From the NCBI RefSeq assembly GCF_014651495.1, contig NZ_BMWZ01000007.1, positions 124,001-188,000 of the forward strand: a DNA stretch of 64,000 nt, read 5' to 3'. Of this stretch, positions 6,526-23,889 are shown one piece after another. The stretch comes from Algibacter mikhailovii. Lineage in GTDB: Bacteria; Bacteroidota; Bacteroidia; Flavobacteriales; Flavobacteriaceae. Below the pieces are notes generated by a model. That model saw only the letters and a program-made list of their open reading frames with translations. It did no database searches and was not told the DNA's origin. Position numbers and translations under genes: made by a program. The stretch's first letter is position 1. Each line of letters starts with the position of its first letter.

Positions 6526-6529
6526 TTAT

Positions 6530-6655
6530 TTAATATGGTTTTTTTTTGGCCTTCTGTAGTATTATAATTTCGTTCATAAACCTTTTTAATAAGTTAATGT
6601 GCTTTAAAGCATACGTAGTCCAAAAGCTTAGCAAAAGACGTTTAAAAAACCACAT
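6530..6655 (-). CDS. Possible 41-residue basic, tryptophan-containing peptide
   Basis: An ATG-started open frame of 41 codons fills the gap between the two paralogous sugar transferase genes almost exactly: its ATG lies three bases after the upstream stop and its TAA four bases before the downstream ATG. The peptide starts MWFFKRLLLSFW, is hydrophobic and aromatic at the N-terminus and ends in a Lys-rich tail (QKAKKKPY). I recognise no family. It could be a small membrane-associated protein, a leftover C-terminus from a lost gene, or chance in AT-rich DNA; an AGGAG lies too far upstream to support translation. Tight spacing is the only argument for it. Confidence 0.3.
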   Translation of the reverse strand: MWFFKRLLLSFWTTYALKHINLLKRFMNEIIILQKAKKKPY

Positions 6656-6658
6656 TGC

Positions 6659-8011: not shown

Positions 8012-8068
8012 CTATTATTCTGCGTGATTTTTTAATTCTATGAACCCATATTGTAGAAATTTACTTAA

Positions 8069-8102
8069 AAAAATCTATTCACAATGATAACAATAGATTT
8101 TT
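8069..8102 (-). terminator. Rho-independent terminator after the beta-propeller gene
   Basis: Eleven-base inverted repeat (8069-8079 with 8092-8102) around a 12-base loop. On the minus strand it ends in a run of seven T. It lies between the beta-propeller stop and the sugar transferase start and divides the locus into two transcription units. Confidence 0.6.
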
Positions 8103-8196
8103 ACTCAGAGTAACATATTTAAAACAAATTGATATAAGGTACCATATTTACCTATTAATAGCTATAAGAACAAATTACCAATTTAGTCAATTTACC

Positions 8197-9129
8197 CTAA
8201 ATTATCTTCCATTTTTTAATAGTTCTATTCGAACTGCTAGTATAAAAATAATTTTCTGAAACTAAAATTTTAATAATTCTCGCCTTATCATAATACTCTT
8301 TAACTATTTCAAAAGTATTTAAGTCAATAATTTTTATAATTCCACTCCAATCACCCGCAATAATAAATCTGTCCTTGTAAATATCAATAGCCTCAATTAT
8401 TTGATTACCAAAAATTAATTTATATTCTTTTGAGCCATTAGCAATATTTATCTTTAAAATTTCACCATTTACAGAAGTAACATATAAATATTCGTGCTTA
8501 TTATCAAAAACAAAATTAACCAATCTATTTTGTCCTTTATAAATCATTCTACTTGTCTTGGTTGTTACATCATAAGCAATAACTTTTCCAGAGTCTGTAA
8601 TATAATAAAGATTATTATTGAAAAAACCCATCCTTCTAGCATATGAATCAATTTTTATTGAATCTATTTTCTTATATCTTGGATTGGTTCCATATTGATA
8701 GCTTTCAATAGTAGAATCCTTTTTACTAATAAAAAACAAACTATCTTCTTGATGAATAAAAAAATCCAACAACTTTGTAGAATACAAAACATGATATTTA
8801 TTTATATCTTTTTGAATTAAATCATAAAAACGAATGGAACTTCTGTCTGCATAAAGCTCATTAGCAGCTGTAATAATTTTTTTTTGCTCCATTAAATTAT
8901 ACAATCTTAAACCAAACCCTCCGACAAAACAGCTGTCTTCTTTAAATATTGCATCCTTAGTTCTAGTCCTTAAATTGTAACTTTTTAAATCTCTCTTTTC
9001 TATAAAAATCAGTGAGTTCTCGAATAGAATAAAGTCTCTTACGGCAAAATTTGTATTCAAGACAACTTCTTGAGCAGATAACCCCTTATTAAAGAACAAA
9101 AAAAATAAACTTAACCCAATCACTCTCAT
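8197..9129 (-). CDS. Secreted WD40-like beta-propeller protein
   Basis: Protein of 310 residues with a typical signal peptide (MRVIGLSLFFLFF ... LSAQ) and then repeated four-stranded blade-like units, e.g. YDVTTKTSRMIYKG, INIANGSKEYKLIFG and IDLNTFEIVKEYY, ending KKWKII. The pattern of hydrophobic strand, turn, and D-hydrophobic-x-T/N repeats fits a six- or seven-bladed propeller in the periplasm or outside the cell. No catalytic motif is visible; a binding or assembly role is the simplest guess. Its ATG starts one base after the stop of the Wzy-like gene, so the two are likely translated together. Such a protein is not a usual part of a Wzx/Wzy locus. It could instead be a cargo gene. Confidence 0.7.
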   Translation of the reverse strand: MRVIGLSLFFLFFNKGLSAQEVVLNTNFAVRDFILFENSLIFIEKRDLKSYNLRTRTKDAIFKEDSCFVGGFGLRLYNLMEQKKIITAANELYADRSSIRFYDLIQKDINKYHVLYSTKLLDFFIHQEDSLFFISKKDSTIESYQYGTNPRYKKIDSIKIDSYARRMGFFNNNLYYITDSGKVIAYDVTTKTSRMIYKGQNRLVNFVFDNKHEYLYVTSVNGEILKINIANGSKEYKLIFGNQIIEAIDIYKDRFIIAGDWSGIIKIIDLNTFEIVKEYYDKARIIKILVSENYFYTSSSNRTIKKWKII

Positions 9130-9130
9130 G

Positions 9131-10279
9131 TCATTCTTTTATTTCATTCATATTTATTGTATTGTAATAATAAAGCATGAGTGTACATAATACTATTCCA
9201 TGATGTCTATTATATATGCTTTCAATAAAACACATTAACCCAACAATAATTAAAAAACCTATATACTCCTTTTTTAATAACTTTATATTCTTGAAAAAAG
9301 GAATTCCAAATGACATCAAGATTAATAACAATCCTATTAAACCAAATTTTAATAAAAAAGATAAATATTGATTATGCGCATTATAATTAAAATCTAAAAA
9401 TTCATAGTTACCGTGCAAAAAATGCGCAATGTTTAATTGTAAATACTCATTTAAGCTACCATAGCCAAAAATAATATTTTGCGATATCATTTCAGTTGCT
9501 GCACTCCAAATTCTTAATCTAAAATCAAATGCTCTAAGGTATAGGTCTAATAAAAAGTTTTTAAAAAAAACAATTAAAATGAAGAGCAACGAAAGAATTA
9601 TTACCTTCTTTATCGCATTCCATTTAATCCTATTCATGGTATGATAGGCTAATAATAGAATAAGAATTATCATAGCTGCTTTGCTTTTAAAAAACCCTAG
9701 AAAGGAAACTAATATAACAAGCATTATTAATATTAACACAAATTCTTTTTTATCTTCAATTCTAAAAAGCCTTACTAATAGATAATTTATAGAAAACAAG
9801 ATATATAATGACATGTATAAATGATGAATATCAAATAATTCTTGAACAATACTTCTATCATAGACTTCAAAATGCAAAATAGAATTAATAAGAATTAATA
9901 AAAAAGTAAAAAATAACCCTGCAATAAAAATTTTTGGCAAAACTTTTATTCTATTGCTGTCAAAATAAAATACAGGCGCCAACAAAAAGACTAAATAAGG
10001 GGCATAGGACCTATCAAAGGACAAAAAAAAAGAATTCAATCCATCAATAAAAACCCCTTGAATACAAATATAAATAAAAAAAAAAATGTAAATAACAAGT
10101 AACTTCTTTTGAGCCAGAATCCATTTAAAATCTCTGTTAATTATAGATTTAATTATCCCTAAAGACAAGGCAATAAAAAGCAATTTAGAACTAAGTTTTA
10201 TGGACAAAGATAGTGTGGCTATAGAAGCGCAAAAAATTAAAAAATCTATTTGTATAATACTTGATTTCACTAATTTCAT
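9131..10279 (-). CDS. O-antigen polymerase/ligase family membrane protein (Wzy/WaaL-like), copy 1
   Basis: Integral membrane protein of 382 residues with about ten to eleven hydrophobic segments and a longer polar loop at roughly residues 255-295 (containing RLRIWSAATEMI and a YNAHNQYLSFLLKFG motif). The AHNxYL motif near the C-terminus is the hallmark of the O-antigen ligase/polymerase family. It may polymerise repeat units (Wzy) or attach the chain to an acceptor (WaaL); sequence alone does not decide. It lies 11 bases downstream of the WecG-type gene and is coupled to the beta-propeller gene. A second, weakly similar membrane polymerase lies at 16698. Confidence 0.85.
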   Translation of the reverse strand: MKLVKSSIIQIDFLIFCASIATLSLSIKLSSKLLFIALSLGIIKSIINRDFKWILAQKKLLVIYIFFFIYICIQGVFIDGLNSFFLSFDRSYAPYLVFLLAPVFYFDSNRIKVLPKIFIAGLFFTFLLILINSILHFEVYDRSIVQELFDIHHLYMSLYILFSINYLLVRLFRIEDKKEFVLILIMLVILVSFLGFFKSKAAMIILILLLAYHTMNRIKWNAIKKVIILSLLFILIVFFKNFLLDLYLRAFDFRLRIWSAATEMISQNIIFGYGSLNEYLQLNIAHFLHGNYEFLDFNYNAHNQYLSFLLKFGLIGLLLILMSFGIPFFKNIKLLKKEYIGFLIIVGLMCFIESIYNRHHGIVLCTLMLYYYNTINMNEIKE

Positions 10280-10290
10280 AGCCAGTATAC

Positions 10291-11052
10291 TTACATCTTT
10301 TTACTTTTTCCAGTTCCTAATTTAATAATTTCAATAAAAAATAACGGGTTTGAATACAAATATCGTTTTGCTAATCTCCAACTTGAAAATGCTCTATGCA
10401 ACCATTCCAACTTTATTTGAATTACCCATTGAGGTGCACGTTTTTTAGTTTCCGCAACAAAATCAAAAACAGCCCCAATAGAACATATAATTTTAGCATT
10501 AACAAACTCATTATTTTGATGTACCCATTTTTCCTGTTTAGGAGCAGTCATACCAACAAAAAGTATGTCTGTATGAAAGTCATTTATTTTTGATATCATA
10601 CGTTTATTATCCATTTCAGAAAAGTTATCTTTAAACGGTGGCGAGAAAAAACCAAATATAATATTTTTATACTGCTTTTCTTGCTTACTTTTAATAACCT
10701 CCAAAGTTGTATTACTCGACCCCAAATAAAAACATTTTAACCCTTTTTCATTGGCTAAATTAAGCAAATGAAGGTGGATGTCTGCACCAGCGATTTTAGC
10801 TATTCGTTGATTTCTTAAGAATTTTGCCATAAATACCACACCTTCACCATCAGGCAATAGAATATCACTGCTAACTAAAGCTTTTTCAAATTCGCTATCT
10901 TTTTTAGCTACAATATAAGAATGAGCGTTTATAGTGTTTATTACTTTTTTAGTAGAATTAATGCCTATACTAGCTAATTCATCAGCATAAATTTTATAAT
11001 CATTAATTAAAATAGTCTTCAAAGCGAGTTTATATTCAATTACTAAATTCAA
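10291..11052 (-). CDS. WecG/TagA/CpsF family glycosyltransferase (GT26)
   Basis: GT26 enzyme that usually adds an N-acetylmannosamine-type residue to a lipid-linked acceptor. Family signs are INAHSYIVAKKD, the catalytic-region LLPDGEGVVFMAK, AGADIHLHLL, FLGSS, VGMTAPKQEKWV and the C-terminal FDFVAETKKRAPQW followed by LEWLHRAFSSWRLAKRYL. Its 253 residues fit the family. The frame opens at TTG 11052, but a second TTG at 11022 (LKTILINDYKIYAD) would give a more typical N-terminus; no ATG is available, so the exact start is open. It follows a 255-base gap without a recognisable gene and heads a three-gene group with the Wzy-like and beta-propeller genes. Confidence 0.9.
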   Translation of the reverse strand: MNLVIEYKLALKTILINDYKIYADELASIGINSTKKVINTINAHSYIVAKKDSEFEKALVSSDILLPDGEGVVFMAKFLRNQRIAKIAGADIHLHLLNLANEKGLKCFYLGSSNTTLEVIKSKQEKQYKNIIFGFFSPPFKDNFSEMDNKRMISKINDFHTDILFVGMTAPKQEKWVHQNNEFVNAKIICSIGAVFDFVAETKKRAPQWVIQIKLEWLHRAFSSWRLAKRYLYSNPLFFIEIIKLGTGKSKKM

Positions 11053-11307
11053 AAATACATCCTTTATTTGTTTTCTATTGCATTTATAAGGGATGTTATT
11101 AAAAAAGAAAGTTATTTATTAATACTTATATAAAGAAAAAAGCCAAGGTGAATATACAATCAATAACTTGCTTAATTATTAGCATTATCTAGTTTGCTGG
11201 CAAAAAAATTTAATATTAGTTATTATTCTAGTCCTAAAAAAATACTATTTTGGTATAACACTTAATGTTTACTATACTCTCCACAATTTATGACAACCAA
11301 AGACCTA

Positions 11308-12432
11308 CTAAATTTCAAGTAATTCTAAAAGGGATTTTTCAAATTTTTCTAAACTGTATTTTTCTAAATAAACACTTCTACACTTTCGGCTAACAGCTTC
11401 ATTCAAGTATTTTTCTTTGATAATATTAAATGATTCTATTAAATTCTCTTTGCTGGTTAGTAAACCAATCTCTTCAGAAATTATTTCTGAAACTGCTCCT
11501 GCATTAAATGCAATTATAGGAAGCCCATAGGATAATGCTTCTAAAATTGAAAGCGGAAAAACCTCTTTTGCATAAACGGAAGGAAAAATAAATAAATTAG
11601 CCTGTTCAAACAATAACTTTTTCTCTTCTCCACGCACCAACCCATGATATAGAACAAGGTCATCTAAATTATATTTCGATACAAAAGTATCAAAGTAGTT
11701 TTGATCTTCAATAGTAGCCCATCCACCAGCAAAGTGAAACTTAATACCTTTCAAATCGGTTTCTTTTGCATATTTAGCCAAATCCAAAACAATGTCATAC
11801 CCTTTCTCCTTCATCATATTAGACAGATACAAAACCTGTATCTTATCGGATTTATGACGACTTAAATTAACATCTGTAAAACTTCTTTTATCAAGATGGT
11901 CTTTAACCCCATTATTTAAAAAATTAATGCTTTTGTACCCTTTTATTCCTCTTAACTCAATTTTCATTTGTTTTGAAATTAAAATTATATGGGCTTTCAA
12001 TAAGAAAAAGTTCGTCAATACTTTTGATAATTGATTTTTTGAAGAAAAAGAATAAATTCCTTTTGCATGGTAATGAAAAACTAATTTTCTTTTAAAACAA
12101 AAACAAAAAAACTTTACGGGTAAAGTAATTATTAAGTCTCTATAAAAGGCTAGACCATTTGGTGATGCAGTATAATATATTAGGTGTGGCCTAAAAATTA
12201 TCAATTGATAAAATACGGTAAAAAACAACTCAACAATAAACCATATTTTATTTAATTTAAACAAACCTATTTCTTCTAAATTATTTGATGATTTAATTTT
12301 AATAAATCTTGACTTAAATCTATCTCCAATTACATTACTATTGACGATAGTATCCCCAACCATAGAAGCGCCATGAATAGGTGGTGAATAATGCAATACA
12401 AAAAGTGCTTTCTTAAAATCCTTTTTAATCAT
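11308..12432 (-). CDS. Family 4 glycosyltransferase
   Basis: Retaining GT-B glycosyltransferase of 374 residues. The N-terminal half begins ALFVLHYSPPIHGASMVGD, and the C-terminal donor domain shows VLYLSNMMKEKGYD, HFAGGW, LVLYHGLVRGEEK and the acidic EVFPLSILEALSYGLP motif that binds the nucleotide sugar. Its ATG overlaps the stop of the preceding GT4 gene by eight bases, so the two are translationally coupled. It is the last gene of the long run that begins upstream near 22554. Acceptor and donor sugars are not predictable from the sequence. Confidence 0.92.
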   Translation of the reverse strand: MIKKDFKKALFVLHYSPPIHGASMVGDTIVNSNVIGDRFKSRFIKIKSSNNLEEIGLFKLNKIWFIVELFFTVFYQLIIFRPHLIYYTASPNGLAFYRDLIITLPVKFFCFCFKRKLVFHYHAKGIYSFSSKNQLSKVLTNFFLLKAHIILISKQMKIELRGIKGYKSINFLNNGVKDHLDKRSFTDVNLSRHKSDKIQVLYLSNMMKEKGYDIVLDLAKYAKETDLKGIKFHFAGGWATIEDQNYFDTFVSKYNLDDLVLYHGLVRGEEKKLLFEQANLFIFPSVYAKEVFPLSILEALSYGLPIIAFNAGAVSEIISEEIGLLTSKENLIESFNIIKEKYLNEAVSRKCRSVYLEKYSLEKFEKSLLELLEI

Positions 12433-13681
12433 GAAGAGGTTTCTTTATTAAAAGGCTATTATAAATGTTAATATATTTATCGGCTTTAGCTTCCCAAGTA
12501 AATTCTTTTAAAATAGTATTTTTATTAAGAGCTCCTATTTCGGTTCTAAGAGCCTTATTTTCGAATAACCGGAGAATTAATGAACTAATCTTATTTTCTA
12601 TTTCTTCAATTGAGAGATTAGGATCAACTAATTGTTGTTCTTTTCTCTGTTTTATAAACTGTCCCGGACCGCCATAATCTAAAGCAACAATTGGTAGTCC
12701 AGAACTCATAGCCTCTAAAATTACAAAACCTGCGCTTTCGAGTGTTGGAAACAAAAACAAGTTAGATTCATTATATAGCTTCATAAGTTGATCCTGAGGA
12801 AGGAATTCTATGAAATTTATATTATTAAAAACACGAAGCTCTTTTGTTATTTTAATTAACTCTTCTTTTTGATTTCCCGAACCTACAATTGTTAAAATAA
12901 CCTTTTTCCTTTTTTCTTTATCAATTAAGTCAATAAACTTTGAAAAACTTCTTAACGTTAATTTGAAATTTTTTATATGAATTAGCCTGCCTATTGACAA
13001 AACATTAAAAACCTCTGTACATGTGGAATTATCAAAATTCACAACCCCTTTTTTCATTCCAATAGCTGGGGAAACTAAAAAATTATCAGTATTTAATCCT
13101 AGTTTTTTATTCACATTTTGGTTTATTCCTATAATTAAATCGGAATGATTTTTACATCTATTGAAATAAGGATCAAAACGTCTAAAAAACCATTGAAGTT
13201 TTATTCTAAAAAACTCAATTAACTTTTCTTTATTTGTAAATAAAAACTTGCCAGGTACCTTATCATGACTGCCCACTGGGCCCCAAATAAAAATATTTCT
13301 TTTATTTTTAAGTTTTATAAATACTGAAGGTAGCCAATCATTAACAAATGTAATATGATGTATAATATCAAAATTTATTTTTCTCTTTCTTAAAAAACGG
13401 ACCGCGCCAAACATCCATAAATAATAGTATATTCTAGTAAAATTACCAGCCTTTTTGAATTTTAAGAATAAATTAGGTAATTCATAATAAAAAAAAGATA
13501 AATTTTCAGGGGAATTTTGACTTTGAATTTTTTCTCTATTATTTTTTCTAGTTATAACAAAATAATTGTTAGAAGTATCTTTTTTAGCTAATACGATAGC
13601 AGTTCCCCAGCCAACTTCTGGCTCTGAACCTTTTCCTGGTTCGCAAGCATATGCACAAAGCAATATCTTTAAATTACCCAT
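12425..13681 (-). CDS. Family 4 glycosyltransferase
   Basis: GT-B fold retaining glycosyltransferase, 418 residues from the ATG. It starts LKILLCAYACEPGKGSEPEVGWG, a pattern typical of one large GT4 subgroup; the donor domain contains NVLSIGRLIHIKNF, LTIVGSGNQKEEL, FLPQDQLMKLY and the E-x7-E motif ESAGFVILEAMSSGLP. The ATG at 13681 overlaps the stop of the APH-like gene by eight bases; the TTG at 13690 is less likely. It is coupled both to that kinase gene and to the next GT4 gene, so all three should be made together. Confidence 0.92.
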   Translation of the reverse strand: MGNLKILLCAYACEPGKGSEPEVGWGTAIVLAKKDTSNNYFVITRKNNREKIQSQNSPENLSFFYYELPNLFLKFKKAGNFTRIYYYLWMFGAVRFLRKRKINFDIIHHITFVNDWLPSVFIKLKNKRNIFIWGPVGSHDKVPGKFLFTNKEKLIEFFRIKLQWFFRRFDPYFNRCKNHSDLIIGINQNVNKKLGLNTDNFLVSPAIGMKKGVVNFDNSTCTEVFNVLSIGRLIHIKNFKLTLRSFSKFIDLIDKEKRKKVILTIVGSGNQKEELIKITKELRVFNNINFIEFLPQDQLMKLYNESNLFLFPTLESAGFVILEAMSSGLPIVALDYGGPGQFIKQRKEQQLVDPNLSIEEIENKISSLILRLFENKALRTEIGALNKNTILKEFTWEAKADKYINIYNSLLIKKPLHD

Positions 13682-14579
13682 AAATATCAAATAGTTGTTT
13701 ATATTTTGAGTATAACTGTGTTTTATGCTTACCCTTTTCTATGTTCATTTTGCTAACTACAAAACTAATTAAGTACTGATTGTAATTTTGTACGTCGAAA
13801 TAATTAAAATATTTTTTTATCCAATAAATATTATCTTCCATAATGTCTTTAATTTCTTTTTTCTCATTAATCAAGAAATTAGTATGAAAGATATAAGTAA
13901 ACAAATCATACCCTAAAGACTTAAAACTAGCCATCTCCCAATCGATCAATATTATGTCTTGGCTATCTTCTTTTAACATATTCCAAGGGCAAAAATCACC
14001 ATGAGAAAACACTCTTTCATTATTATTTTGAGCTAAAGGAAATAATTCACCTAAAACACATAGTAATTCAAATATTTTATCATTAATACTAGTAAAACTT
14101 ACTTTTTTACCCTTTATTACATCGGTTAAAATAAATGTAAAATCTTTATTATTTACATAATTAATAAGTCTAGGTGTTTTTATAACATTTTGACTTTCTA
14201 ATTTTTTTAAAATCTTAGCCTCATTCTTTACCAATTGTTGAGCAATAGGTTTCTGTGCAAACTTTAAGAATCTCTTTGCTTTATTGTTTTCAGCAATTAT
14301 TGTTGCTTTTTGTTCTCGCCCTGGTGTGCCTATATTAAAAAAAAATGAAGCTTCCTTCAATTCAATAATTTCTTTTATTTTTGAGATAGGTAATGGAAGA
14401 TTGCTTTCATTAATTTTAAAAAAATATCTAACTAAAAAAGCCTTTTTAAAAAAAAACCAAAATATTTTCGATTTGATTGAAAATGGCTTGTAAAACTCTT
14501 GATATATCCTGAATTTTCTTGTAGGAAAAAAAAACTGGGGCTTATTAGGTGGGTAAAAATAGTATTCAAAAACACTCAT
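13674..14579 (-). CDS. Aminoglycoside-phosphotransferase-like kinase
   Basis: Protein-kinase-fold small-molecule kinase of 301 residues from the ATG (a GTG lies two codons upstream). The N-lobe shows a glycine-containing strand (NIGTPGREQKATII), a lysine strand (AKRFLKFAQ) and an NEAKILKKLE helix. The catalytic loop reads FSHGDFCPWNML and the metal-binding DFG-like strand reads ILIDWEM. Both active aspartates and the asparagine are present, so it should transfer phosphate from ATP. In a glycan locus the likely target is a sugar, choline-like or lipid group, not an antibiotic. It overlaps the following GT4 gene and follows the nucleotidyltransferase/kinase fusion gene, hinting at a shared modification pathway. 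Confidence 0.8.
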   Translation of the reverse strand: MSVFEYYFYPPNKPQFFFPTRKFRIYQEFYKPFSIKSKIFWFFFKKAFLVRYFFKINESNLPLPISKIKEIIELKEASFFFNIGTPGREQKATIIAENNKAKRFLKFAQKPIAQQLVKNEAKILKKLESQNVIKTPRLINYVNNKDFTFILTDVIKGKKVSFTSINDKIFELLCVLGELFPLAQNNNERVFSHGDFCPWNMLKEDSQDIILIDWEMASFKSLGYDLFTYIFHTNFLINEKKEIKDIMEDNIYWIKKYFNYFDVQNYNQYLISFVVSKMNIEKGKHKTQLYSKYKQLFDIYG

Positions 14580-14630
14580 ATTCACAATTAATCTTAACAG
14601 TTATTTTTAGTAAACAAAATTTACAGTGGT

Positions 14631-15965
14631 CTATTTATTTAACCGTTCATTCATATTTTTTTTAATTAATTCTACCACTTCATTAATAGTTGTTTCAATA
14701 GTCTTACTTGTATCAATCCAATAGGCATTTTTAACTTTATTGCTAAATGCCTTTAAGGTTAATACTTGTGCTTTAACTTCCTTTAAAGGGAGCTCTTTTT
14801 TTCTATCATATAAAATTTCAGGTTTCCCTCCTAAACAAATTATTAAATTTGGACTAGGAACAAAAACTTTAATCATTTTAATAATCCACGAAGGTAGTTT
14901 TATTCTTCCTCTTTTGGGATCAATTAAGTAGTCATAAAAATATCTGTCAAAAATCCATAAAGATGGTTTTCGAACTAAACTGGGGTAAACCTTTAACCAA
15001 TAGCCAATAATATAATCCATTGAATAATAAAACAACCTAAAAATAGATCCAATAAAGCCAGATTCCTTTTTTTCATGAGGATTTGCAACAGTACCTACGT
15101 GTTCCTCTTTCTTAAGTATTGAGGCTATGCTAGGTAAAAAGTTAGGACGCATATGTTCGTAATGTACTTCGTTATGAACAGCTTCCGTTAATAAGGGTGT
15201 TATATTATTAATAATAGTTGTTTTGCCCGATCCATCTACACCTAAAAAAGTTATAGTATATCCAAACGGATGTCTAAATCTATTGACTTTACCAAAAAAA
15301 GAATGTATATTTTTTAATTTATTAGAAAGGCCAGAAGTTAATTCCTTAGCTCCTAAAACTCCAAGCTTTTTAACCTTTAAAAAATCATAAGAGTCTTTAG
15401 ATAACACATCGTCTAGGAGTAATATAAAACGTTTTGAATACTTTTTGTTCAACTCTTTTAAATATATTTCTCTATTTAACTCCCAAGCCATACTTGCCTC
15501 TATAAAATACTTTTCACAACGCTTATTATAAAATATTTCTTTCAAAAAAGCTATAAAAATAGCATCGTTATCATTAAAAACTTTTACTTTGTTATAAGTG
15601 TTAAGTCTTGAAAAAACAAACTTTACTGGAAAAATATCTGCTGATTTATATGGTATTATTCCATGGTGGACATCAAACATAATCCCATAAAAACAATTAT
15701 CCTCTCCCCCCAAAACACATATTTTAGGAACTTGTCCTTTAGAGCTTGCTATTATAACCCCATTTGTACTTTTTAATACTTTATTAAAAATATTGTAAAA
15801 TAGTTGGATGTCTTCGTTTGAAATCAAAATATCCAAATCACTTTTTCCTAAGGAAGAAGGAAGCCCTTTATAGTTTCTCATAACTCCATATTTAACATTG
15901 GAGTTATTTAATTGGGTGAAAAATGGCTTTAAAAATACACTCTCATTTTCCATTCCCAAAAACAT
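14631..15965 (-). CDS. Nucleotidyltransferase-fold / thymidylate-kinase-like P-loop fusion protein
   Basis: Two-domain protein of 444 residues. Residues about 20-125 look like a minimal nucleotidyltransferase fold: LGKSDLDILIS carries the paired aspartates (43 and 45), with a further aspartate in IMFDVHHG. After a helical linker, GVDGSGKT at 242-249 is a Walker A loop, and WIFDRYFYDYLIDPKR carries the DR motif of thymidylate-kinase-like enzymes. The C-terminal half keeps a lid-like DRKKELP segment. True dTMP kinase is about 210 residues and has no such N-terminal domain, so a nucleotide- or phosphate-transfer role in glycan building is more likely than DNA precursor supply. The start overlaps the upstream GT2 gene; ATG 15953 is an alternative. 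Confidence 0.75.
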   Translation of the reverse strand: MFLGMENESVFLKPFFTQLNNSNVKYGVMRNYKGLPSSLGKSDLDILISNEDIQLFYNIFNKVLKSTNGVIIASSKGQVPKICVLGGEDNCFYGIMFDVHHGIIPYKSADIFPVKFVFSRLNTYNKVKVFNDNDAIFIAFLKEIFYNKRCEKYFIEASMAWELNREIYLKELNKKYSKRFILLLDDVLSKDSYDFLKVKKLGVLGAKELTSGLSNKLKNIHSFFGKVNRFRHPFGYTITFLGVDGSGKTTIINNITPLLTEAVHNEVHYEHMRPNFLPSIASILKKEEHVGTVANPHEKKESGFIGSIFRLFYYSMDYIIGYWLKVYPSLVRKPSLWIFDRYFYDYLIDPKRGRIKLPSWIIKMIKVFVPSPNLIICLGGKPEILYDRKKELPLKEVKAQVLTLKAFSNKVKNAYWIDTSKTIETTINEVVELIKKNMNERLNK

Positions 15966-16701
15966 AGTTCTTAATAGTTAACACCGCTCTTATTGATAAT
16001 GCAAAAAGGTTACCAAAAATATTCATTCCTGCCTCCTTTCTGGCAACAAACCCTTCTTTCATTCTATTATTAAAACTCATTTGGGCACTCACTCCTTCTA
16101 ATCTGTAATTCACTATCGCCTTATTTATATAAACAAAAGTATCAGGGTCTGCTAGAAATGCTTCAAGCACAAATTGATAATCAGATAAAGCTATTAACTC
16201 TGTACTGTACTTGTGCTTCTTATATTCTTGCCTCGCAATAAACATTGATGGGTGATTATAGGTCATACTATAATACTTAAACTTAATTGAAGACTGATTA
16301 AATTTTTTGATTATTCTTGATCCATCACTAAGCACATCATAACGGTCTGCATGAAAAATAGTTTTAAATGGGTTCTCCAAATAAGCCTTTACCATTATTT
16401 CTACGGCATTTGACTCATACCAGTCATCACTATTTATCATGCCTATCAACTCCCCGTTAGCAATATTAATACCCTTATTCATGGCATCATAGAGCCCCTT
16501 ATCAGGCTCACTTATCCATTTATTAATTGTAGTCTCATTTTTCTTAATAATTGAAATTGTTTTATCCGTAGAACCACCATCAATTATTATATACTCGATG
16601 TTTTTATAGGTTTGATTTCGGACACTTTCAATTGTTTGTTGAAGGTGTATTTCTCCATTGTATACAACTGTAATGATACTTACAAGAGGTTTTTCGGTCA
16701 T
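15943..16701 (-). CDS. Family 2 glycosyltransferase
   Basis: GT-A glycosyltransferase of 252 residues of the WcaA/WcaE-like group. It opens VSIITVVYNGEIHLQQTIES, has IDGGSTDKT, WISEPDKGLYDAMNKGI and the metal-binding NSDDWY, and ends with a hydrophobic-basic tail. The ISEPDKGLYDAMNKG signature is very typical for exopolysaccharide GT2 enzymes. Its ATG overlaps the stop of the upstream Wzy-like gene in an ATGA arrangement, and its own end overlaps the fusion gene, so these three are coupled. The sugar added is unknown. Confidence 0.93.
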   Translation of the reverse strand: MTEKPLVSIITVVYNGEIHLQQTIESVRNQTYKNIEYIIIDGGSTDKTISIIKKNETTINKWISEPDKGLYDAMNKGINIANGELIGMINSDDWYESNAVEIMVKAYLENPFKTIFHADRYDVLSDGSRIIKKFNQSSIKFKYYSMTYNHPSMFIARQEYKKHKYSTELIALSDYQFVLEAFLADPDTFVYINKAIVNYRLEGVSAQMSFNNRMKEGFVARKEAGMNIFGNLFALSIRAVLTIKNYVFGNGK

Positions 16702-17930
16702 TTTAACCCTATTAAATTATTTATCTCAACATCATCCATATCTCTATAATCCTTTTTCAAAACCGTCCCAATAGCCATCCATAAAATAATAAATAAAGGT
16801 GTAAATGTAGGTCTTAATTCTATAATAGTTAAAATTGTAATTATTAATATAAAATAGCCTAATCTACGGATAAACCAGTTGTTTGATTTGAATATAGCCA
16901 AATAAATAGCCTTAAAATAAATTAAAACATTAAGTATTAACATTACAAATCCTCCCTTTAATATCATCTGTAAATAACCAACCTCTACTGAAATTCTATC
17001 TGGAACATCACCAGGCCAACCTACGCGCCCCATGGCTTCCCAATACCTTCTTGTTCTTGCAAAAAAGTCACTATAATACTTACCTAAAGACCCTCTCCCA
17101 AATAGCAAGTCATCAGTTTTTGATAAATCTTCAAAAATTTCATTAAATAGAAAAACTCTTGTTTCTTGGAAATCAATTACAGATAGAGCAATATCAGACA
17201 AAAATTCGTACCCTACGGTAAAAACAAGTGTAAACAAAATAAAAAACCCAAATATTATGTACTTAAAAAAAATCTTTTTTATTGAAATAGAGGATATTCT
17301 ATCAATCATTAAAAAAATTAATACTACACCTAAGAATAAAAACTCCATTCGCCTAGAAGAATATATGGCAATCTTGACATAAACAAATAAAATACAATAA
17401 ACTTGTAATCTTGTCATAAACTTAAAGCGATATAATCCAATTATTAAAATAAAGTTTACTGGTCGCAATAATTGTATCCATTCTTCATTATGACTAAGAT
17501 AAGGTGATGCTATAAATGCTAATATCATTATTGAAAACATGAAGGAAATTGTCTTAAATACTATTTTCCAATTTTCAATTTTTAACCCAATAATGACAAC
17601 TACAGGAACTAACCAGGCATAGCCCATATAGATATTTCCAAAATTAGTCATCCAATCTTGTAGGGATAGAGAAAAACCTCTTATGGTAACTATAACTCCC
17701 CAGAAAAACAATAAATAAAGTAATACTTTAGAGTTTTTTGAAATATGCTCCATCTCCTTCCTACCACTGTAACAAACTAAAAAAAGACATATCGCAGAAA
17801 ATAATAAAAAACTAGTTATTGTAATATTTAACAGGCTTATACCGTTTGGCATAAATAAAAAAAGAAGGGCTATATAAATTACATTTGAAAATAATGCCCA
17901 TTTTATTAATCTGTTACTTGTAATAAACAT
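16698..17930 (-). CDS. O-antigen polymerase-like membrane protein (Wzy candidate), copy 2
   Basis: Polytopic membrane protein of 410 residues with about eleven hydrophobic segments and a large periplasmic-type loop at roughly residues 245-325 (LFGRGSLGKYYSDFFARTRR and VEVGYLQMILKGGFVMLI). The loop with Arg-rich and E-x-GYLQ-like motif before the last helices is characteristic of Wzy polymerases. It is translationally coupled to the GT2 gene downstream and follows the GT4 gene at 18010 after 79 noncoding bases. Its position next to glycosyltransferases and the flippase makes it the better candidate for repeat-unit polymerase of the two such proteins here. Confidence 0.8.
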   Translation of the reverse strand: MFITSNRLIKWALFSNVIYIALLFLFMPNGISLLNITITSFLLFSAICLFLVCYSGRKEMEHISKNSKVLLYLLFFWGVIVTIRGFSLSLQDWMTNFGNIYMGYAWLVPVVVIIGLKIENWKIVFKTISFMFSIMILAFIASPYLSHNEEWIQLLRPVNFILIIGLYRFKFMTRLQVYCILFVYVKIAIYSSRRMEFLFLGVVLIFLMIDRISSISIKKIFFKYIIFGFFILFTLVFTVGYEFLSDIALSVIDFQETRVFLFNEIFEDLSKTDDLLFGRGSLGKYYSDFFARTRRYWEAMGRVGWPGDVPDRISVEVGYLQMILKGGFVMLILNVLIYFKAIYLAIFKSNNWFIRRLGYFILIITILTIIELRPTFTPLFIILWMAIGTVLKKDYRDMDDVEINNLIGLK

Positions 17931-18009
17931 ATATTATCCTTGATTAACTAGCTCCCCCAAAACAAAAACAATTTGAACACCAATACATTGTCTTCTTTTT
18001 TAGAATTCT

Positions 18010-19242
18010 TTATTGATTCAAAATATTCTTGTACAGTTCAATATAATCTTGTCCTACTTTTTTATCATTAAAGTCTTTCACCACCTTTGCTCTAGAACTT
18101 TCAGATAAATCTTTATAAATACTGTCATCCAAGACCCATTCAATTCCTCTGGACAAATCTTCTTCTTTAAATGGTTCTGCTAAATACCCGTTTTTTTTAT
18201 GCTCTATTAAATCCTTATTTCCTCCTATATTAAAGCCAACCACCGGTGTTCCGCAAGATAGACTTTCCATAATTATATTGGATAAGTTCTCTTGCTTACT
18301 TGGTGTTACCGTAACATCTGCTGCAGAAAATAATGTTACTAAACTTGCATCGTCATGCAATTCCCCTAAATAATGAGTTTTAAATCCAAATTCAAAAGGC
18401 GATTCAGGTCTCGTACTTCCAAAAATTAATAATTCAATATTTTTTAAACTTATTACAGCTAGCGCAGAAGTTAACTCTTCAAAACCCTTTCTTTCATCAC
18501 TTGTTCCCGACATAGCTCCAAATAATACTAGTTTTTTATCTAAAGGCAAATTCCACAATTCCCGTGCCTTTTTTTTATCAAATGGTTTAAAAACATTTGT
18601 ATCTATTGGGTTAGGTAAATTAACAATTCTTTTTCCTTCAAAAAGAGGGCTTGATTTTGAACATTGTACAAGCCATTTACTTAAACCAATAATAGTCATG
18701 TTTTCTAAGGATTTGAACGCCTGTTGTTTTCTCCTGAATAGTTTTTTACTAATATCGTTATTCTTTTTAGAATTCAATACTGGACATTTTCCACAACTAT
18801 CTTCATAAGCATTACAACTATTAGAGTAATGACATCCGCCAGTAAAGGGCCACATATCATGAAGCGACCAAACTATAGGAGCTTCAATTTTATTTAAATC
18901 TTCTACCTTTAGCATTCCTGCATTAATCCAATGTAGATGAACTATATCAGGCTTCAAATGATTAATTTTCTTTACTAAATTAAAGCTTAAAGAAAATGAA
19001 GGAGAAAAAGGGGCTGAAACTCTATATTTTTTAAGAGGAAGTGGATTAATTAAGGCTTTAAACTTTGCAAATACTTTATCTATATTAGTTTTTGGGGCAT
19101 GGACTAAATAGCTGTCCGTATTCTTCATTAAAACAAACATTTTAGAATCAACATCTAAGTTAAGTAATGACTGGTGAAGTCTACTAGCTGCTCTTGCTGC
19201 GCCTCCACTACTATCACTAAAATTAACTATAAGTATTTTCAT
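18010..19242 (-). CDS. Family 4 glycosyltransferase with cysteine-rich insert
   Basis: GT-B retaining glycosyltransferase of 410 residues. It begins MKILIVNFSDSSGGAARAA, followed by DIVHLHWINAGML, then a four-cysteine segment (GGCHYSNSC ... CGKCPVL at about 133-155) typical of a WcaC/WcaL-like GT4 subgroup. The donor domain has KLVLFGAMSGTSDERKGFEE, PSKQENLSNIIMESLSCGTP and GFNIGG. The cysteines may bind a metal or form a structural knot; known in this subgroup from many polysaccharide loci. It lies five bases after the nucleotidyltransferase gene at 19248 and so belongs to the same operon. Confidence 0.92.
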   Translation of the reverse strand: MKILIVNFSDSSGGAARAASRLHQSLLNLDVDSKMFVLMKNTDSYLVHAPKTNIDKVFAKFKALINPLPLKKYRVSAPFSPSFSLSFNLVKKINHLKPDIVHLHWINAGMLKVEDLNKIEAPIVWSLHDMWPFTGGCHYSNSCNAYEDSCGKCPVLNSKKNNDISKKLFRRKQQAFKSLENMTIIGLSKWLVQCSKSSPLFEGKRIVNLPNPIDTNVFKPFDKKKARELWNLPLDKKLVLFGAMSGTSDERKGFEELTSALAVISLKNIELLIFGSTRPESPFEFGFKTHYLGELHDDASLVTLFSAADVTVTPSKQENLSNIIMESLSCGTPVVGFNIGGNKDLIEHKKNGYLAEPFKEEDLSRGIEWVLDDSIYKDLSESSRAKVVKDFNDKKVGQDYIELYKNILNQ

Positions 19243-19247
19243 CTCTA

Positions 19248-20213
19248 TTATTTTAAAAAAAATATTGCTTTTTTTAGTTTAAATTTAATATCATCTCTAA
19301 AAAAATGAAAAGAAAAAGGAGTAACGAAAGGGTATTCCACACCTTTTGCCCTTAAAATACAATTTAAATTTTGCGAATTCTTTATATAGTCTTGTAAGAT
19401 GATATTATTAGATTTGTTATAATAAAATTGTTGAAAAAAATTAAAAAATGTATCATTAAGATATACTTTATAACCCTTTTCTTCAATTAGAAATTTATTA
19501 TTGTTACTTAATAATATTTCCAATCTGTTGTTAATGCAATACCGAGTACGCCGACTGTAACGTTCTAATTGATCAATAACAATATCATTCGAGTATTCAA
19601 ATAATTCGGATAACTTAATAATAAATATTTCATTAACATCTTTTGGTAATACCTTTCCCTTTAAAACACTGAATCTAAGTTCCGAACTAAATTTTAAGGC
19701 CTTATGACTAGAGTCAATATTGTCTATAGACTGACAAATATTCTTAAGAACTAACAACCTATCCCTGCAAGAATATTTTTCATTAGTAATTACATGAAGT
19801 CCAGTAACCATTAAAAAACTGGTCCAAATGATATTTAACATAAGTTTTGAACCTGCAGAAGGCTTTACTATTTCGATTGAGCTAGGGTTATATGTTATTT
19901 TTAAACCATATAATGAGTGGAAATTTGGTATTAATGAAATCATTTCTTCTGATATAATGAAAGGTTCATGAAAAAACAAATAGCTTCTTATCTCATCCTT
20001 CTTTATATAATTTAAAATTTTCTCTCTGTTTTCTTGGAAATCGTTTTTTTGCAAACAAATAAAAACATCTAAATCAGAAATTGAAGGACAAGATGCATCA
20101 CCAAATTCACCTATTATTAAGGGCTTTGTTTGCGTTTTACAAAATTGTTCAAGATCATTATAGGCATTCCTGTAATCTTCCAAATTCAATATTTTAATTC
20201 CTGCTTTATCCAA
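19248..20213 (-). CDS. Nucleotidyltransferase-fold protein of unknown role
   Basis: Protein of 321 residues not assignable to a named family by eye. The segment IIGEFGDASCPSISDLDVFI matches the loop and paired-aspartate signature of the nucleotidyltransferase fold (Gly-rich turn, then DxD), in a variant form with Asp where Ser is usual. The remainder is helical and ends in a basic tail (FKLKKAIFFLK). The frame starts at TTG 20213 and overlaps the end of the next nucleotidyltransferase gene upstream by eight bases, so the pair is likely coupled. A LicD- or fukutin-like phospho-transfer role is possible, as is a nucleotide-sugar step; both are inference. Confidence 0.6.
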   Translation of the reverse strand: MDKAGIKILNLEDYRNAYNDLEQFCKTQTKPLIIGEFGDASCPSISDLDVFICLQKNDFQENREKILNYIKKDEIRSYLFFHEPFIISEEMISLIPNFHSLYGLKITYNPSSIEIVKPSAGSKLMLNIIWTSFLMVTGLHVITNEKYSCRDRLLVLKNICQSIDNIDSSHKALKFSSELRFSVLKGKVLPKDVNEIFIIKLSELFEYSNDIVIDQLERYSRRTRYCINNRLEILLSNNNKFLIEEKGYKVYLNDTFFNFFQQFYYNKSNNIILQDYIKNSQNLNCILRAKGVEYPFVTPFSFHFFRDDIKFKLKKAIFFLK

Positions 20214-21183
20214 CTATATCAAGGTACTTTAAGGATTCAGAAATATAATCGCTTGTACTTCTTTTATTAAGGTCATTAAGAGATAACAAACTGGTGTCAT
20301 TTTTAGAAACTTTTGGAGAAAATTTTTCTGCAAACTTTCTCCAAATATGAGGGTCAGGACAAAATTTAACGAGAAAAGCGAATATCTTAAAAATGCTCTT
20401 TCCGGTTATAACATCCCAATTTTCTCTACAATTAGTAGACCAAGTTATACAGCTAAAAGCATCAACTGAATATAAAGTATGTGATTTTGCTATTGCTCCT
20501 GGCTTATCTATTTCTTCATTCTTTAATTGAAATATAAATGCAGGAACTAAAACAAAAGAGCCTACTAAACATTTAAGTTCATAAGCATTTATATTATTTA
20601 AAAAATACTTTTCACTTAATCGTTCTATATTTTTACATGTGCCTATTATATTTTCTCGTAATCCTTTTAAAGTTTGTTCCTTATCAATATTCGCTTTTAT
20701 AATTTCATCACCTTGAATTCTTTTTGCCTCTTTCATGATGTATAAAGGCATAAATGAATTATTATAAACATCTAATTCGTTATTGCAAACAATCCAATGA
20801 CCATGATGTTGGATAGGGTCAATTCTACAAAACTTTATATCAATTTTGTTTAAAATTGATATTACACTCCTTAATTCTTTTTGAGACTTAAATCTATCTT
20901 TATGTATAATTATAAAATCATCAATATCAGAAAAAGCATTGTTAGTATTATCTGCCCAACTACCATGAAGATAAGCTGATACATAGTTTTCATAAGGCTT
21001 CAAATTCCTAAATAATTGCATAATTTTTCTATTATTACACAATTGTATATTTTCAATTAAAACAGTATCTAATTTTTTTTCTGCAGTTTCTTGAATTTCA
21101 TGAACCAAAAGATTTTTCCTTTTAAAAGAATTATATACCTTATAAAAAAAGGTGTTTCGATATGTAATTTGGTTGCATTTCAT
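20206..21183 (-). CDS. Nucleotidyltransferase domain protein
   Basis: Protein of 325 residues with a canonical minimal nucleotidyltransferase signature: YLHGSWADNTNNAFSDIDDF near residues 92-111 (GS turn plus SDID pair), and FCRIDP as a candidate third acidic strand at about 152-157. A histidine pair (IQHHGHWIV) follows. The C-terminal half is helical and unassigned. It begins six bases after the flippase gene and overlaps the second nucleotidyltransferase gene. The two proteins share the fold signature but little other obvious sequence, so they may form a heteromeric or sequential pair. Substrate unknown; antibiotic-modifying activity is unlikely in this context. Confidence 0.7.
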   Translation of the reverse strand: MKCNQITYRNTFFYKVYNSFKRKNLLVHEIQETAEKKLDTVLIENIQLCNNRKIMQLFRNLKPYENYVSAYLHGSWADNTNNAFSDIDDFIIIHKDRFKSQKELRSVISILNKIDIKFCRIDPIQHHGHWIVCNNELDVYNNSFMPLYIMKEAKRIQGDEIIKANIDKEQTLKGLRENIIGTCKNIERLSEKYFLNNINAYELKCLVGSFVLVPAFIFQLKNEEIDKPGAIAKSHTLYSVDAFSCITWSTNCRENWDVITGKSIFKIFAFLVKFCPDPHIWRKFAEKFSPKVSKNDTSLLSLNDLNKRSTSDYISESLKYLDIVG

Positions 21184-21189
21184 TTATAA

Positions 21190-22554
21190 TTACTTATTCC
21201 AAATTCCTCTGGCCTTATTATTGATAATCCTATAATATTGAATAGGTCTTAAAATCACGGAATACCCCAAACAAAAACAAGTCGCAAACATAACTCCTGA
21301 AACACCAAAATTTAAAGTTTTTGCAAAAAATATACTTAACGGAATGTTAATTACCATAGAAATTATTGCCGTTACTAGTTGAAGTTTGATTTTGCCAACT
21401 CCATTTATAAAACTAACAAAAATACTGTTAAATGAGCTCATTAACACAAACAAAGCCATAGATAATGACAAGATTTTTGGAACAACAACCTCTTTGCCAA
21501 CCCACATTAAATAAAACCAATCTGCCAAAAACAACATTAAAACCAAACCGACTGGCACTACTATCCAAATTTTAAGAATATTATTAATAGAAATCTTAAT
21601 CCAACTAAAATCGTTTTTTACATATGCATCTGTAAATGATGACCAATATGGAGCAACAAGCATTGAAAAAGCCATAGTCAAAATTGAAAAATACTTAAAT
21701 GCTATATTGTAAGGCACTACTTCTTCTGGACTAAAAACGATACTAATAATAAAATTATCTGTTGAAAACAAAACTAAAGCCGCTATTTGAATAATAAAAA
21801 ACCTAAGTCCAACCCCCATTATCTCATTTAAATATTTATTATTCCACAAATAGATTGATGGTTTTAAGAGCCTAAACCTATTAGAAAAACCAAATAAATT
21901 TAATACCAAAAGTACTAAAACAGGCAACGCAGAAAATATTATTCCATAGATTAATAAGGAGCTATTCGTTGTTTTTGTCAAAGCCCAAACAATAATTAGT
22001 AATAACACTTGGGTAATAAATTGAATTTTTACTTGAATGGAGTGATTTTGGTCTGCTAAGTATACACTTGATATTAGTTTAACTATTAGCTGTAAACAGA
22101 AAAGACCAATAATTACAGGCATTAATATGCTAAAGTCTGACATCAATTGATCACTCGTATTAAACACTCTGGTCCAATCAATGAAATAATTAACTATTAG
22201 AAATAATGTAAACAATGATATACTTATGCAGGTAATAGTATAATAAGCAGTACTTATATAGGCTCTTGCCAAAGAATAATCATTCTTCGCTTTAGCCTCG
22301 GCAAACTTATTACGTAAACCGTTCCCTAAACCAATGTCAAAAAAAGAAAACCAAGAAATAAAGGAGCTTAAGGTTAACCAAACCCCATAATTTTCAACAT
22401 CAAGATAATTAATTGTAAGCGGAACTAAAAGAAAATTAGCTAAAACAGCCCCTCCTTTATAAAAAAAAGAAACAGCAATATGTTTCACTATATTTAAAGT
22501 TCGACCGCTTTTTACACCAATTCTATCTAATAATTCAATGATTTTTTTCTTCAA
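21190..22554 (-). CDS. Wzx-type polysaccharide flippase
   Basis: Multi-pass membrane protein of 454 residues with about twelve helices, of the MATE/MOP exporter superfamily that flips lipid-linked repeat units across the inner membrane. N-terminal GGAVLANFLLVPLTINYLD and WLTLSSFISWFSFFDIGLGNGLRNKFAEA are classic for Wzx proteins. The start is TTG 22554; there is no nearby ATG before the first helix. It is the only flippase in the window and leads the long minus-strand run of glycan genes. The upstream 273-base gap contains the decayed fcl fragment. Confidence 0.93.
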   Translation of the reverse strand: MKKKIIELLDRIGVKSGRTLNIVKHIAVSFFYKGGAVLANFLLVPLTINYLDVENYGVWLTLSSFISWFSFFDIGLGNGLRNKFAEAKAKNDYSLARAYISTAYYTITCISISLFTLFLIVNYFIDWTRVFNTSDQLMSDFSILMPVIIGLFCLQLIVKLISSVYLADQNHSIQVKIQFITQVLLLIIVWALTKTTNSSLLIYGIIFSALPVLVLLVLNLFGFSNRFRLLKPSIYLWNNKYLNEIMGVGLRFFIIQIAALVLFSTDNFIISIVFSPEEVVPYNIAFKYFSILTMAFSMLVAPYWSSFTDAYVKNDFSWIKISINNILKIWIVVPVGLVLMLFLADWFYLMWVGKEVVVPKILSLSMALFVLMSSFNSIFVSFINGVGKIKLQLVTAIISMVINIPLSIFFAKTLNFGVSGVMFATCFCLGYSVILRPIQYYRIINNKARGIWNK

Positions 22555-22619: not shown

Positions 22620-22790
22620 CTAATTAAATTTCAGAAAAATTCTCCCATTATTAATAAAACTTAGGAGTTTATACCTATCAAATATTGCTTTAATGCCGCC
22701 TTCTAATTCAATTCTATGTTTCCATCCCAAACTATTTAACTGAGGAACATTTGTTAATTTGCGCTTGATTCCATCAGGTTTACTGGTGTT
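22620..22790 (-). pseudogene. fcl: Relic of the 3' end of a GDP-L-fucose synthase gene
   Basis: Translation of the minus strand from 22790 reads NTSKPDGIKRKLTNVPQLN and then SLGWKHRIELEGGIKAIFDRY, ending near 22671. This aligns with the C-terminus of GDP-L-fucose synthase (family pattern D-x-SKPDG-x-x-RKL-x-D-V, then LGW-x-x-x-I-x-L-x-x-G). After that point the frame runs out of homology and stops at 22620. The rest of the roughly 310-residue gene is missing: upstream it breaks off 38 bases after the Wzz-like stop. No gmd partner is nearby. It is best read as a recombination scar from a former version of the locus that made GDP-fucose. Confidence 0.8.
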
Positions 22791-22827
22791 AATAATTAAA
22801 TTAAACGTTATTAAAATATGTACATAA

Positions 22828-23889
22828 TTAATTTTTAAAACGTTCTAAGAATTTAATAAACTCAAAAATTATAAGTCCTAAAAACACTAGGAAAGATATT
22901 AATGTGGCATAATAAGCTTTATACCCAAGTGATTTTCCTAAAATTTCTTTTCTATTATCAATGAAGCCACTTTCTTGTTTACTCGATATTATTTCCACAA
23001 TATCCTTCTTATCGAGCAATTCTCTTTCAATTTCAACCAACTCTCTCCTCAGCTCTAGATCATTCTTATACAAATCAAATTCCTTAGTTTTTTCTATATT
23101 ATTGTTGCCTTCAAAAGTAATGCCTATTTCTGATTCCTTTTCTATAGATTTTTCTAAAACACGCTTATAGGTATTTTGTAAAGAATCTGATTTAATCAAT
23201 GCAATTTCTAACGCTAATTTTATATTACTTAATTCTTCGACATCTTTCGCTTGTTCATTTATGAAATATTCATTAGAATTAACCCCTTCAACAACTTTTT
23301 CAAATACCAATTTAAAATTATTTCTTTCTTTAGCCTTTATGGAAATTTGTTGAACCTTGTGGTCATACTCCTTATCATTTAACAAATAGTCTTCATATGT
23401 TATAGATGAGGATACCATAGTATCAAGTGTTTTTATATAAGTATCATACTCTTTAAGCCTCTCATTTTCACTAATCAAAGACCCTACTTCAAAACCTAAT
23501 ATTTTTGCAGCTTCACCGGGCGTAACGCCTAATGTTGCACCTAGAGTTATTGTATCTCCTTGTTTAACTAAATCATTAAAATAACTTACCGTATTGTACA
23601 AGTCCTCTCCGGTGTCATAGTTTTGCTTGACTGTAAAAAATGATTTATAAACAGGCTCTCCTGTTTTTTCAAAATAAACGCCTAAACCAACACCTATTAC
23701 CCCAGCAATAATCAACTTTAGCAAATGCTTTTTAACAAAAAACACAAGCCACACAAAACCAAGAAAGAGCTTATAGAAGATATTACCAATAAAATTAAAA
23801 AACCGCTCAAAAGCATTGCCTATAAGTCTAAATAATTGACCTAAATCCACCTCCTCTGACTGTTGTGGTTGTTTTGATTCTGTACTCAT
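22828..23889 (-). CDS. Wzz-like chain-length determinant protein
   Basis: Protein of 353 residues with the layout of polysaccharide co-polymerases: a cytoplasmic N-terminus, hydrophobic segments at about 40-53 and 57-73, a long mainly helical periplasmic part rich in Glu/Lys (residues 100-320, with coiled-coil-like ELRRELVEIERELLDKKDI) and a C-terminal helix at about 327-345. No kinase domain is attached, so it is of the Wzz type rather than Wzc. It probably sets glycan chain length together with a Wzy protein. It follows DUF6909 by eight bases, so it may be transcribed with the conserved M23-GH3-DUF6909 set rather than with the variable glycan genes. Confidence 0.75.
   Translation of the reverse strand: MSTESKQPQQSEEVDLGQLFRLIGNAFERFFNFIGNIFYKLFLGFVWLVFFVKKHLLKLIIAGVIGVGLGVYFEKTGEPVYKSFFTVKQNYDTGEDLYNTVSYFNDLVKQGDTITLGATLGVTPGEAAKILGFEVGSLISENERLKEYDTYIKTLDTMVSSSITYEDYLLNDKEYDHKVQQISIKAKERNNFKLVFEKVVEGVNSNEYFINEQAKDVEELSNIKLALEIALIKSDSLQNTYKRVLEKSIEKESEIGITFEGNNNIEKTKEFDLYKNDLELRRELVEIERELLDKKDIVEIISSKQESGFIDNRKEILGKSLGYKAYYATLISFLVFLGLIIFEFIKFLERFKN

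Follow-up and report, generated by a model that had tools for sequence, protein, structure and literature searches.

The stretch of DNA analysed here (the window) comprises 64,000 nucleotides and corresponds to positions 124001–188000 of contig C7 in the draft genome of Algibacter mikhailovii (G000; 4.4 Mb, 39 contigs). The features of interest are located on its minus strand. A gene for a Wzz-like protein of 353 aa (22828–23889) is followed by a joint of about 25 bases (22803–22827), which extends from the stop of this gene to the first fcl-like codon. Then come 44 codons resembling the C-terminus of GDP-L-fucose synthase, Fcl (22671–22802), and the continuation of the same frame up to and including a TAG stop (22620–22670). 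A wzx-type flippase gene (21190–22554) and the remaining glycan cluster (5116–21183) lie beyond.

The Wzz-like protein is matched over residues 1–353 by its counterpart in genome G327 with 65% identity, and the nearest named records are from Flavobacteriaceae. The Pfam family Wzz (PF02706) was hit below threshold (E = 0.13) and the best PDB match (E = 0.5) is not a convincing relative; 'Wzz-like' is a weak designation taken from the place of the gene and the outline of the protein. The flippase belongs to the MATE/Polysacc_synt superfamily, with MatE at E = 1.3e-8 (35.2 bits, cut-off 24.9) and Polysacc_synt at 23.7 bits, under its cut-off of 28.2. The remaining cluster contains transferases, wzy2, WecG, wzy1, a beta-propeller gene and two Bac_transf genes. 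Within 5116–21183, tblastn did not find rml, gmd, ugd or any epimerase/decarboxylase-like gene. Both Bac_transf genes encode WcaJ-type sugar transferases and adjoin each other (5116–8011), as do their homologs in G001 (L063). Four genes located among the glycan genes at 13674–15965 and 19248–21183 (APH/choline-kinase-like, weakly thymidylate-kinase-like, a Polbeta-type nucleotidyltransferase and an unknown gene) are never the best hit in the clusters of G029 or G034 and may act in glycan modification. Gene labels such as rml, gmd, GT, GH3, M23 and ugd are in part those that we presume to be appropriate. Names in the loci of relatives are blastp best hits against the ORFs of the A. mikhailovii genome, and the listings of these loci hid unannotated ORFs overlapping annotated ones as well as short unannotated ORFs.

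The minus-strand frame 22623–22838 translates into a polypeptide containing NLIINTSKPDGIKRKLTNVPQLNSLGWKHRIELEGGIKAIFDRY. Its codons from 22802 to 22671 correspond to Fcl residues 302–345 of about 350, with no stop inside and no start ahead of them. The best 13 of the 22 PDB sequences listed at E ≤ 1 are all GDP-fucose synthases (top match 7anh, E = 1.9e-9), one of which carries the alternative name GDP-4-keto-6-deoxymannose epimerase/reductase; the remaining nine, with E between 0.0017 and 0.28, comprise leucine-rich-repeat proteins and designs. A single NCBIfam family was matched, GDP-fucose synthase NF047922 (E = 2e-9), and no Pfam family was matched at E up to 10. Thus, the piece resembles Fcl rather than the C-termini of other SDR proteins. 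Its 37 bits compare with a curated NF047922 cut-off of 500, which the intact Fcl of relatives do not reach either. Past 22671 the similarity to Fcl ends, and the frame runs on to the stop codon at 22620–22622; this last part is the disordered tail of the first-pass annotation. The first-pass annotation had described a decayed fcl 3' end between wzx and the Wzz-like gene at 22620–22790. This identification is borne out; the similarity itself, however, spans 22671 to about 22802.

Relative to intact Fcl, the piece fits positions 258–301 of the 308 in the NF047922 profile, while residues 1–301 and the start are lacking. It does not amount to a complete enzyme, as the window holds residues 302–345 only; the absent part includes the nucleotide-binding and catalytic regions. 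A tblastn search of the window (E 0.01) used a pair each of intact Fcl and Gmd sequences along with two sets of RmlB/A/C/D. The only match was 22802–22671, with no further piece of fcl, gmd or rml, in agreement with the earlier statement that no upstream part remains. Pieces of ugd or of epimerase/decarboxylase-like genes were likewise not found in the window at this threshold. Judged by its sequence, the piece is a remnant of fcl and not an enzyme.

No usable start codon precedes the Leu-Gly-Trp motif in the remnant frame, and hence the remnant is not a gene of its own. The sole ORF of at least 20 aa in this frame begins with a TTG at the Leu of this motif and encodes 36 aa. In comparisons of the remnant with nine intact long-type copies, third codon positions account for a share of 0.37–0.51 of the differences, versus 0.59 among intact pairs. 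Furthermore, three of 11 residues that are invariant in 13 intact long-type copies are altered. In this small sample of 44 codons, compared descriptively, the pattern is what one would expect of a former gene whose constraint has been relaxed.

The corresponding chromosomal site was compared in 20 genomes and two named MAG contigs (L008 and L009). Its order is conserved: M23-like, GH3-like, DUF6909 and Wzz-like genes, then usually rmlB-rmlA-rmlC-rmlD, and then transferases. rmlC is present at the site in all 20 genomes, and rml together with, in many cases, gmd-fcl is located between wzz and the transferases. A wider count, in which fcl was placed by coordinates and gmd was not counted, covered 51 genomes: the best 43 among the Wzz matches listed (own genome excluded) and eight picked for wzx or genus. 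The Wzz position of G029 was derived from L094. In 14 of the 51 genomes (10 of 43 without the eight chosen for other reasons) an fcl occurs downstream of the Wzz-like gene at a distance of up to 15 kb; four have it on the upstream side ahead of the DUF6909 gene, eight have it only elsewhere, and 25 have no fcl-grade match (E 1e-15). All nine loci that were read of those 14 contain gmd-fcl (G327, G070, G396, G267, G029, G034, G097, G133 and G043). Looking for an intact gmd-fcl pair near the Wzz-like gene in relatives, as the first-pass annotation had proposed, was therefore successful. In G072 (L052:106–2275) gmd-fcl occupies the opposite flank of the Wzz-like gene, ahead of DUF6909, and by coordinates the same holds for fcl in G044, G264 and G320. 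In G014 (L101:5626–6977) wzx is split into two ORFs behind the Wzz-like gene, with no rml between. The wzz-wzx gaps of G014 (L101) and G370 (L112) were searched for a remnant and gave no match.

In the relative G034 (L095, L109) the Wzz-like gene is followed by rmlBACD, three further genes, gmd, fcl, wzx, wzy2 and GT2a; farther along the locus come GT4b, GT4a, WecG, wzy1, ugd, an epimerase/decarboxylase-like gene and WcaJ2. Its fcl stops at 12351 and its wzx starts at 12357, leaving a gap of 5 bases; the start of wzx is called as TTG there and in the window. Identities to the window are 49% for Wzz, 62% for wzx, 51% for wzy2, 57% for GT2a, 31% for GT4b, 56% for GT4a and 65% for WecG. In G265 a gap of 4 bases separates fcl from a wzx that is 53% identical to that of the window, and in G025 and G252 fcl lies about 110 bases upstream of wzx (39%). 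Altogether, 30 wzx loci were inspected over 1,500 bases on each side: four have an intact fcl directly upstream, two a remnant (the window and G376), one an fcl about 1.2 kb off, and 23 none. In G029, which has the closest wzx (66%), five listed genes separate fcl from wzx; in G097 four genes and a 148-residue frame do so; and in G388 fcl lies downstream of wzx, at a distance of about 8.6 kb. In G034, G029 and G097, ugd and the epimerase/decarboxylase-like gene stand at the opposite end of the cluster.

In a wzx tree of 33 rows (29 of the 30 wzx loci, the split wzx of G014 being excluded, and four others) the window belongs to a clade of eight with support 100/99. Within this clade an intact fcl is adjacent in G034 and G265, a remnant is present in G000 and G376, fcl lies further upstream in G029 and G097, and G387 and G388 have neither. 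Adjacency of fcl is not clustered on the tree (three changes; 161 of 500 shuffles were equally low) and the branching inside the close clade is without resolution. Consequently, the tree gives no proof of an ancestral fcl-wzx adjacency. The surviving end of fcl faces wzx, however, and in G034 fcl stands directly before the homologous wzx, which other homologs of the window's genes follow. Hence, the fcl tail was probably part of the present wzx set, either from the outset or by arriving together with it. The missing genes are more likely those of a nucleotide-sugar block that lay between wzz and wzx, and less likely an earlier set of glycan genes.

Equivalent precursor genes are present elsewhere in the A. 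mikhailovii genome. An intact gmd-fcl pair is located on contig C3 (L002, 8675–9820 and 7542–8660) and rmlBACD on contig C12 (L004). On contig C12 (L003, L004) rmlBACD is part of another large polysaccharide locus, together with Wzc/Wza-like genes, transferases and a gene for a UDP-sugar dehydrogenase; some of these labels are likewise presumptive. The remnant is 43–48% identical to the Fcl of C3, which led us to reject it as a recent copy of that gene, and 45–61% identical to Fcl from the wzz loci of relatives, with G029 as the best. Since these ranges overlap, they do not fix its parent lineage. rmlB was counted (E 1e-60) in 33 genomes, which were chosen rather than sampled: it is single-copy in 32, and G396 has two copies. 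It is located at the wzz locus in 23 of the 33, whereas in six (G000, G046, G267, G014, G394 and G370) the site is present and rmlB lies elsewhere; for the remaining four (G265, G376, G387 and G388) only the copy number was taken. Thus, absence of rmlB from the locus goes together with a copy elsewhere. A loss of the capacity for GDP-fucose is not required because an intact gmd-fcl pair is kept on C3.

Other truncated pieces of these genes occur. In G376 (L098:12577–12675) Fcl residues 315–347 precede a homologous wzx (57%), with rmlD upstream and nothing else of fcl remaining. In the genome search this piece was found at E = 4.9e-7, scoring no better than RmlB tails. An origin as an RmlB tail was rejected, since NF047922 matches it at E = 1.1e-6 versus 0.039 for RmlB and 13 GDP-fucose synthases top its PDB matches. 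It is closer to short-type Fcl (26.6 bits, with a profile built from four sequences) than to long-type Fcl (20.7 bits), while the window piece is closer to the long type (48.6 versus 33.1 bits). Because of these differing types, the two tails probably go back to separate events, with the reservation that the G376 piece is short. In G265 (L100:8760–9572) a gmd match begins at residue 102, ahead of wzx and an fcl that is intact; a few kb upstream a complete gmd occurs along with another fcl, and a NusG-like gene lies between. Among 61 genomes, fcl-tail frames shorter than 100 aa with E 1e-3 or better and away from contig ends were detected only in G000 and G376. Two short fcl frames in G119 were rejected as remnants, both being contig ends, and G133 contains a weak short fcl frame (E = 0.006).

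We consider it rather probable that the remnant derives from the 3' end of a now dead fcl that once lay upstream of the present wzx, and that its precursor block was deleted in place. The ancestral block would have had the order wzz-(rmlBACD)-gmd-fcl-wzx. A cut from the wzz side, at the present joint, would have removed this block and joined the wzz stop to the last approximately 45 codons of fcl, sparing wzx and its start region. Such a cut would be tolerable because contigs C3 and C12 carry equivalent genes (gmd-fcl and rmlBACD, respectively). GDP-fucose and dTDP-rhamnose may still be supplied in trans, and the glycan of this locus may contain both sugars. The comparison behind a deletion covers relatives but no close strain, the genus being otherwise represented by one genome only (G001).

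A joint produced by recombination is the main alternative and less likely than a deletion, although several observations are compatible with it. Here a module of wzx and transferase genes, with the final codons of fcl at its border, would have been imported and joined behind the resident Wzz-like gene; the breakpoint would lie within the fcl of the donor and nothing would have been deleted in place. In G001 the flanking genes are close (GH3-like 87%, DUF6909 83%), while the Wzz protein is of another type (33–34%) and no fcl-grade match is present. This divergence from wzz onwards indicates that the locus has been exchanged between relatives. In addition, Wzz and wzx of the window have their closest relatives in different genomes (G327 and G029, respectively), so that a mosaic is possible, and G265 and G376 likewise have a gmd or fcl that is 5'-truncated before wzx. 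An import is not needed, however, since G034 unites this Wzz type and this wzx in one locus with gmd-fcl between them. Also against it speaks the joint itself, which lies no more than about 25 bases from the wzz stop.

According to the first-pass annotation, the remnant marks a recombination edge: an earlier version of the locus, which probably made GDP-fucose next to the Wzz-like gene, would have given way to the present glycan genes. That the remnant marks a joint is supported, and fcl downstream of wzz does occur in homologous loci, in several of those read with other glycan genes behind it. A replacement by the present genes, as an unrelated set, nevertheless seems improbable: two events would be necessary, a loss between wzz and fcl and a replacement after fcl, and the adjacency of fcl and wzx in G034 and G265 would be a coincidence. 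An assembly artefact, i.e. a collapsed or chimeric contig, is very improbable; the genome is a draft and the short frames of G119 show what contig ends can produce, but the joint is well inside contig C7 and the remnant is only 44% identical to the one other fcl-grade match of the genome. That the 44 stop-free codons are retained for themselves as a functional short peptide or RNA element is hardly credible, given the missing start, the apparently relaxed constraint and the occurrence of a similar piece, nearer another Fcl type, in just one other genome (G376) of 61 at E 1e-3 or better, which also disposes of a conserved independent short gene.

Beyond the deletion of this one block, a more general pattern is conceivable. 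The sites range from full rmlBACD, with or without gmd-fcl, through rmlC and rmlD only (G046, G267 and G394) to no rml at all (G000, G014 and G370). Tentatively, precursor genes located between wzz and wzx may be trimmed repeatedly in Flavobacteriaceae, with a single copy at another place acting in trans and the start region of wzx as the limit of such cuts; the 5'-truncated gmd or fcl before wzx in G265, G376 and G000 would then be scars of this process. The scar in the window suggests a direction of change in which precursor genes are lost and assembly genes are kept. It also advises caution in deducing the sugars of a glycan from the gene content of its locus alone, because precursors may be made by genes on other contigs.

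The piece has the properties of a gene remnant in a Wzx/Wzy-type cluster: it is truncated, lacks a start, and relatives have intact counterparts at this site. A search of open-licence literature, largely at the level of titles, returned no published fcl or gmd remnant in a polysaccharide cluster. Related cases are described for the O-antigen clusters of Salmonella enterica, where wzy remnants are reported in groups B1 and D1 that span different regions of the gene and are interpreted as separate decay (PMC3715488). Also reported there are rml genes containing recombination junctions and, at the D2 junction, the remnant of an H-repeat element (PMC3715488). Both systems have truncated, non-functional genes that record earlier forms of the cluster; in Salmonella a polymerase gene is affected, whereas in the present flavobacterial locus it is a precursor gene, fcl, where wzz and wzx meet. 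Gene remnants are known from O-antigen clusters, and the comparison with relatives suggests an ordinary kind of gene loss in the window. A separation of precursor genes from assembly genes also has a parallel in Sphingomonas sanxanigenens, whose sanxan pathway is scattered and yet reported to work (PMC5399355). On that description the whole sanxan pathway is scattered, while in A. mikhailovii only the precursor genes are gone from an otherwise compact cluster with a putative glycan product.
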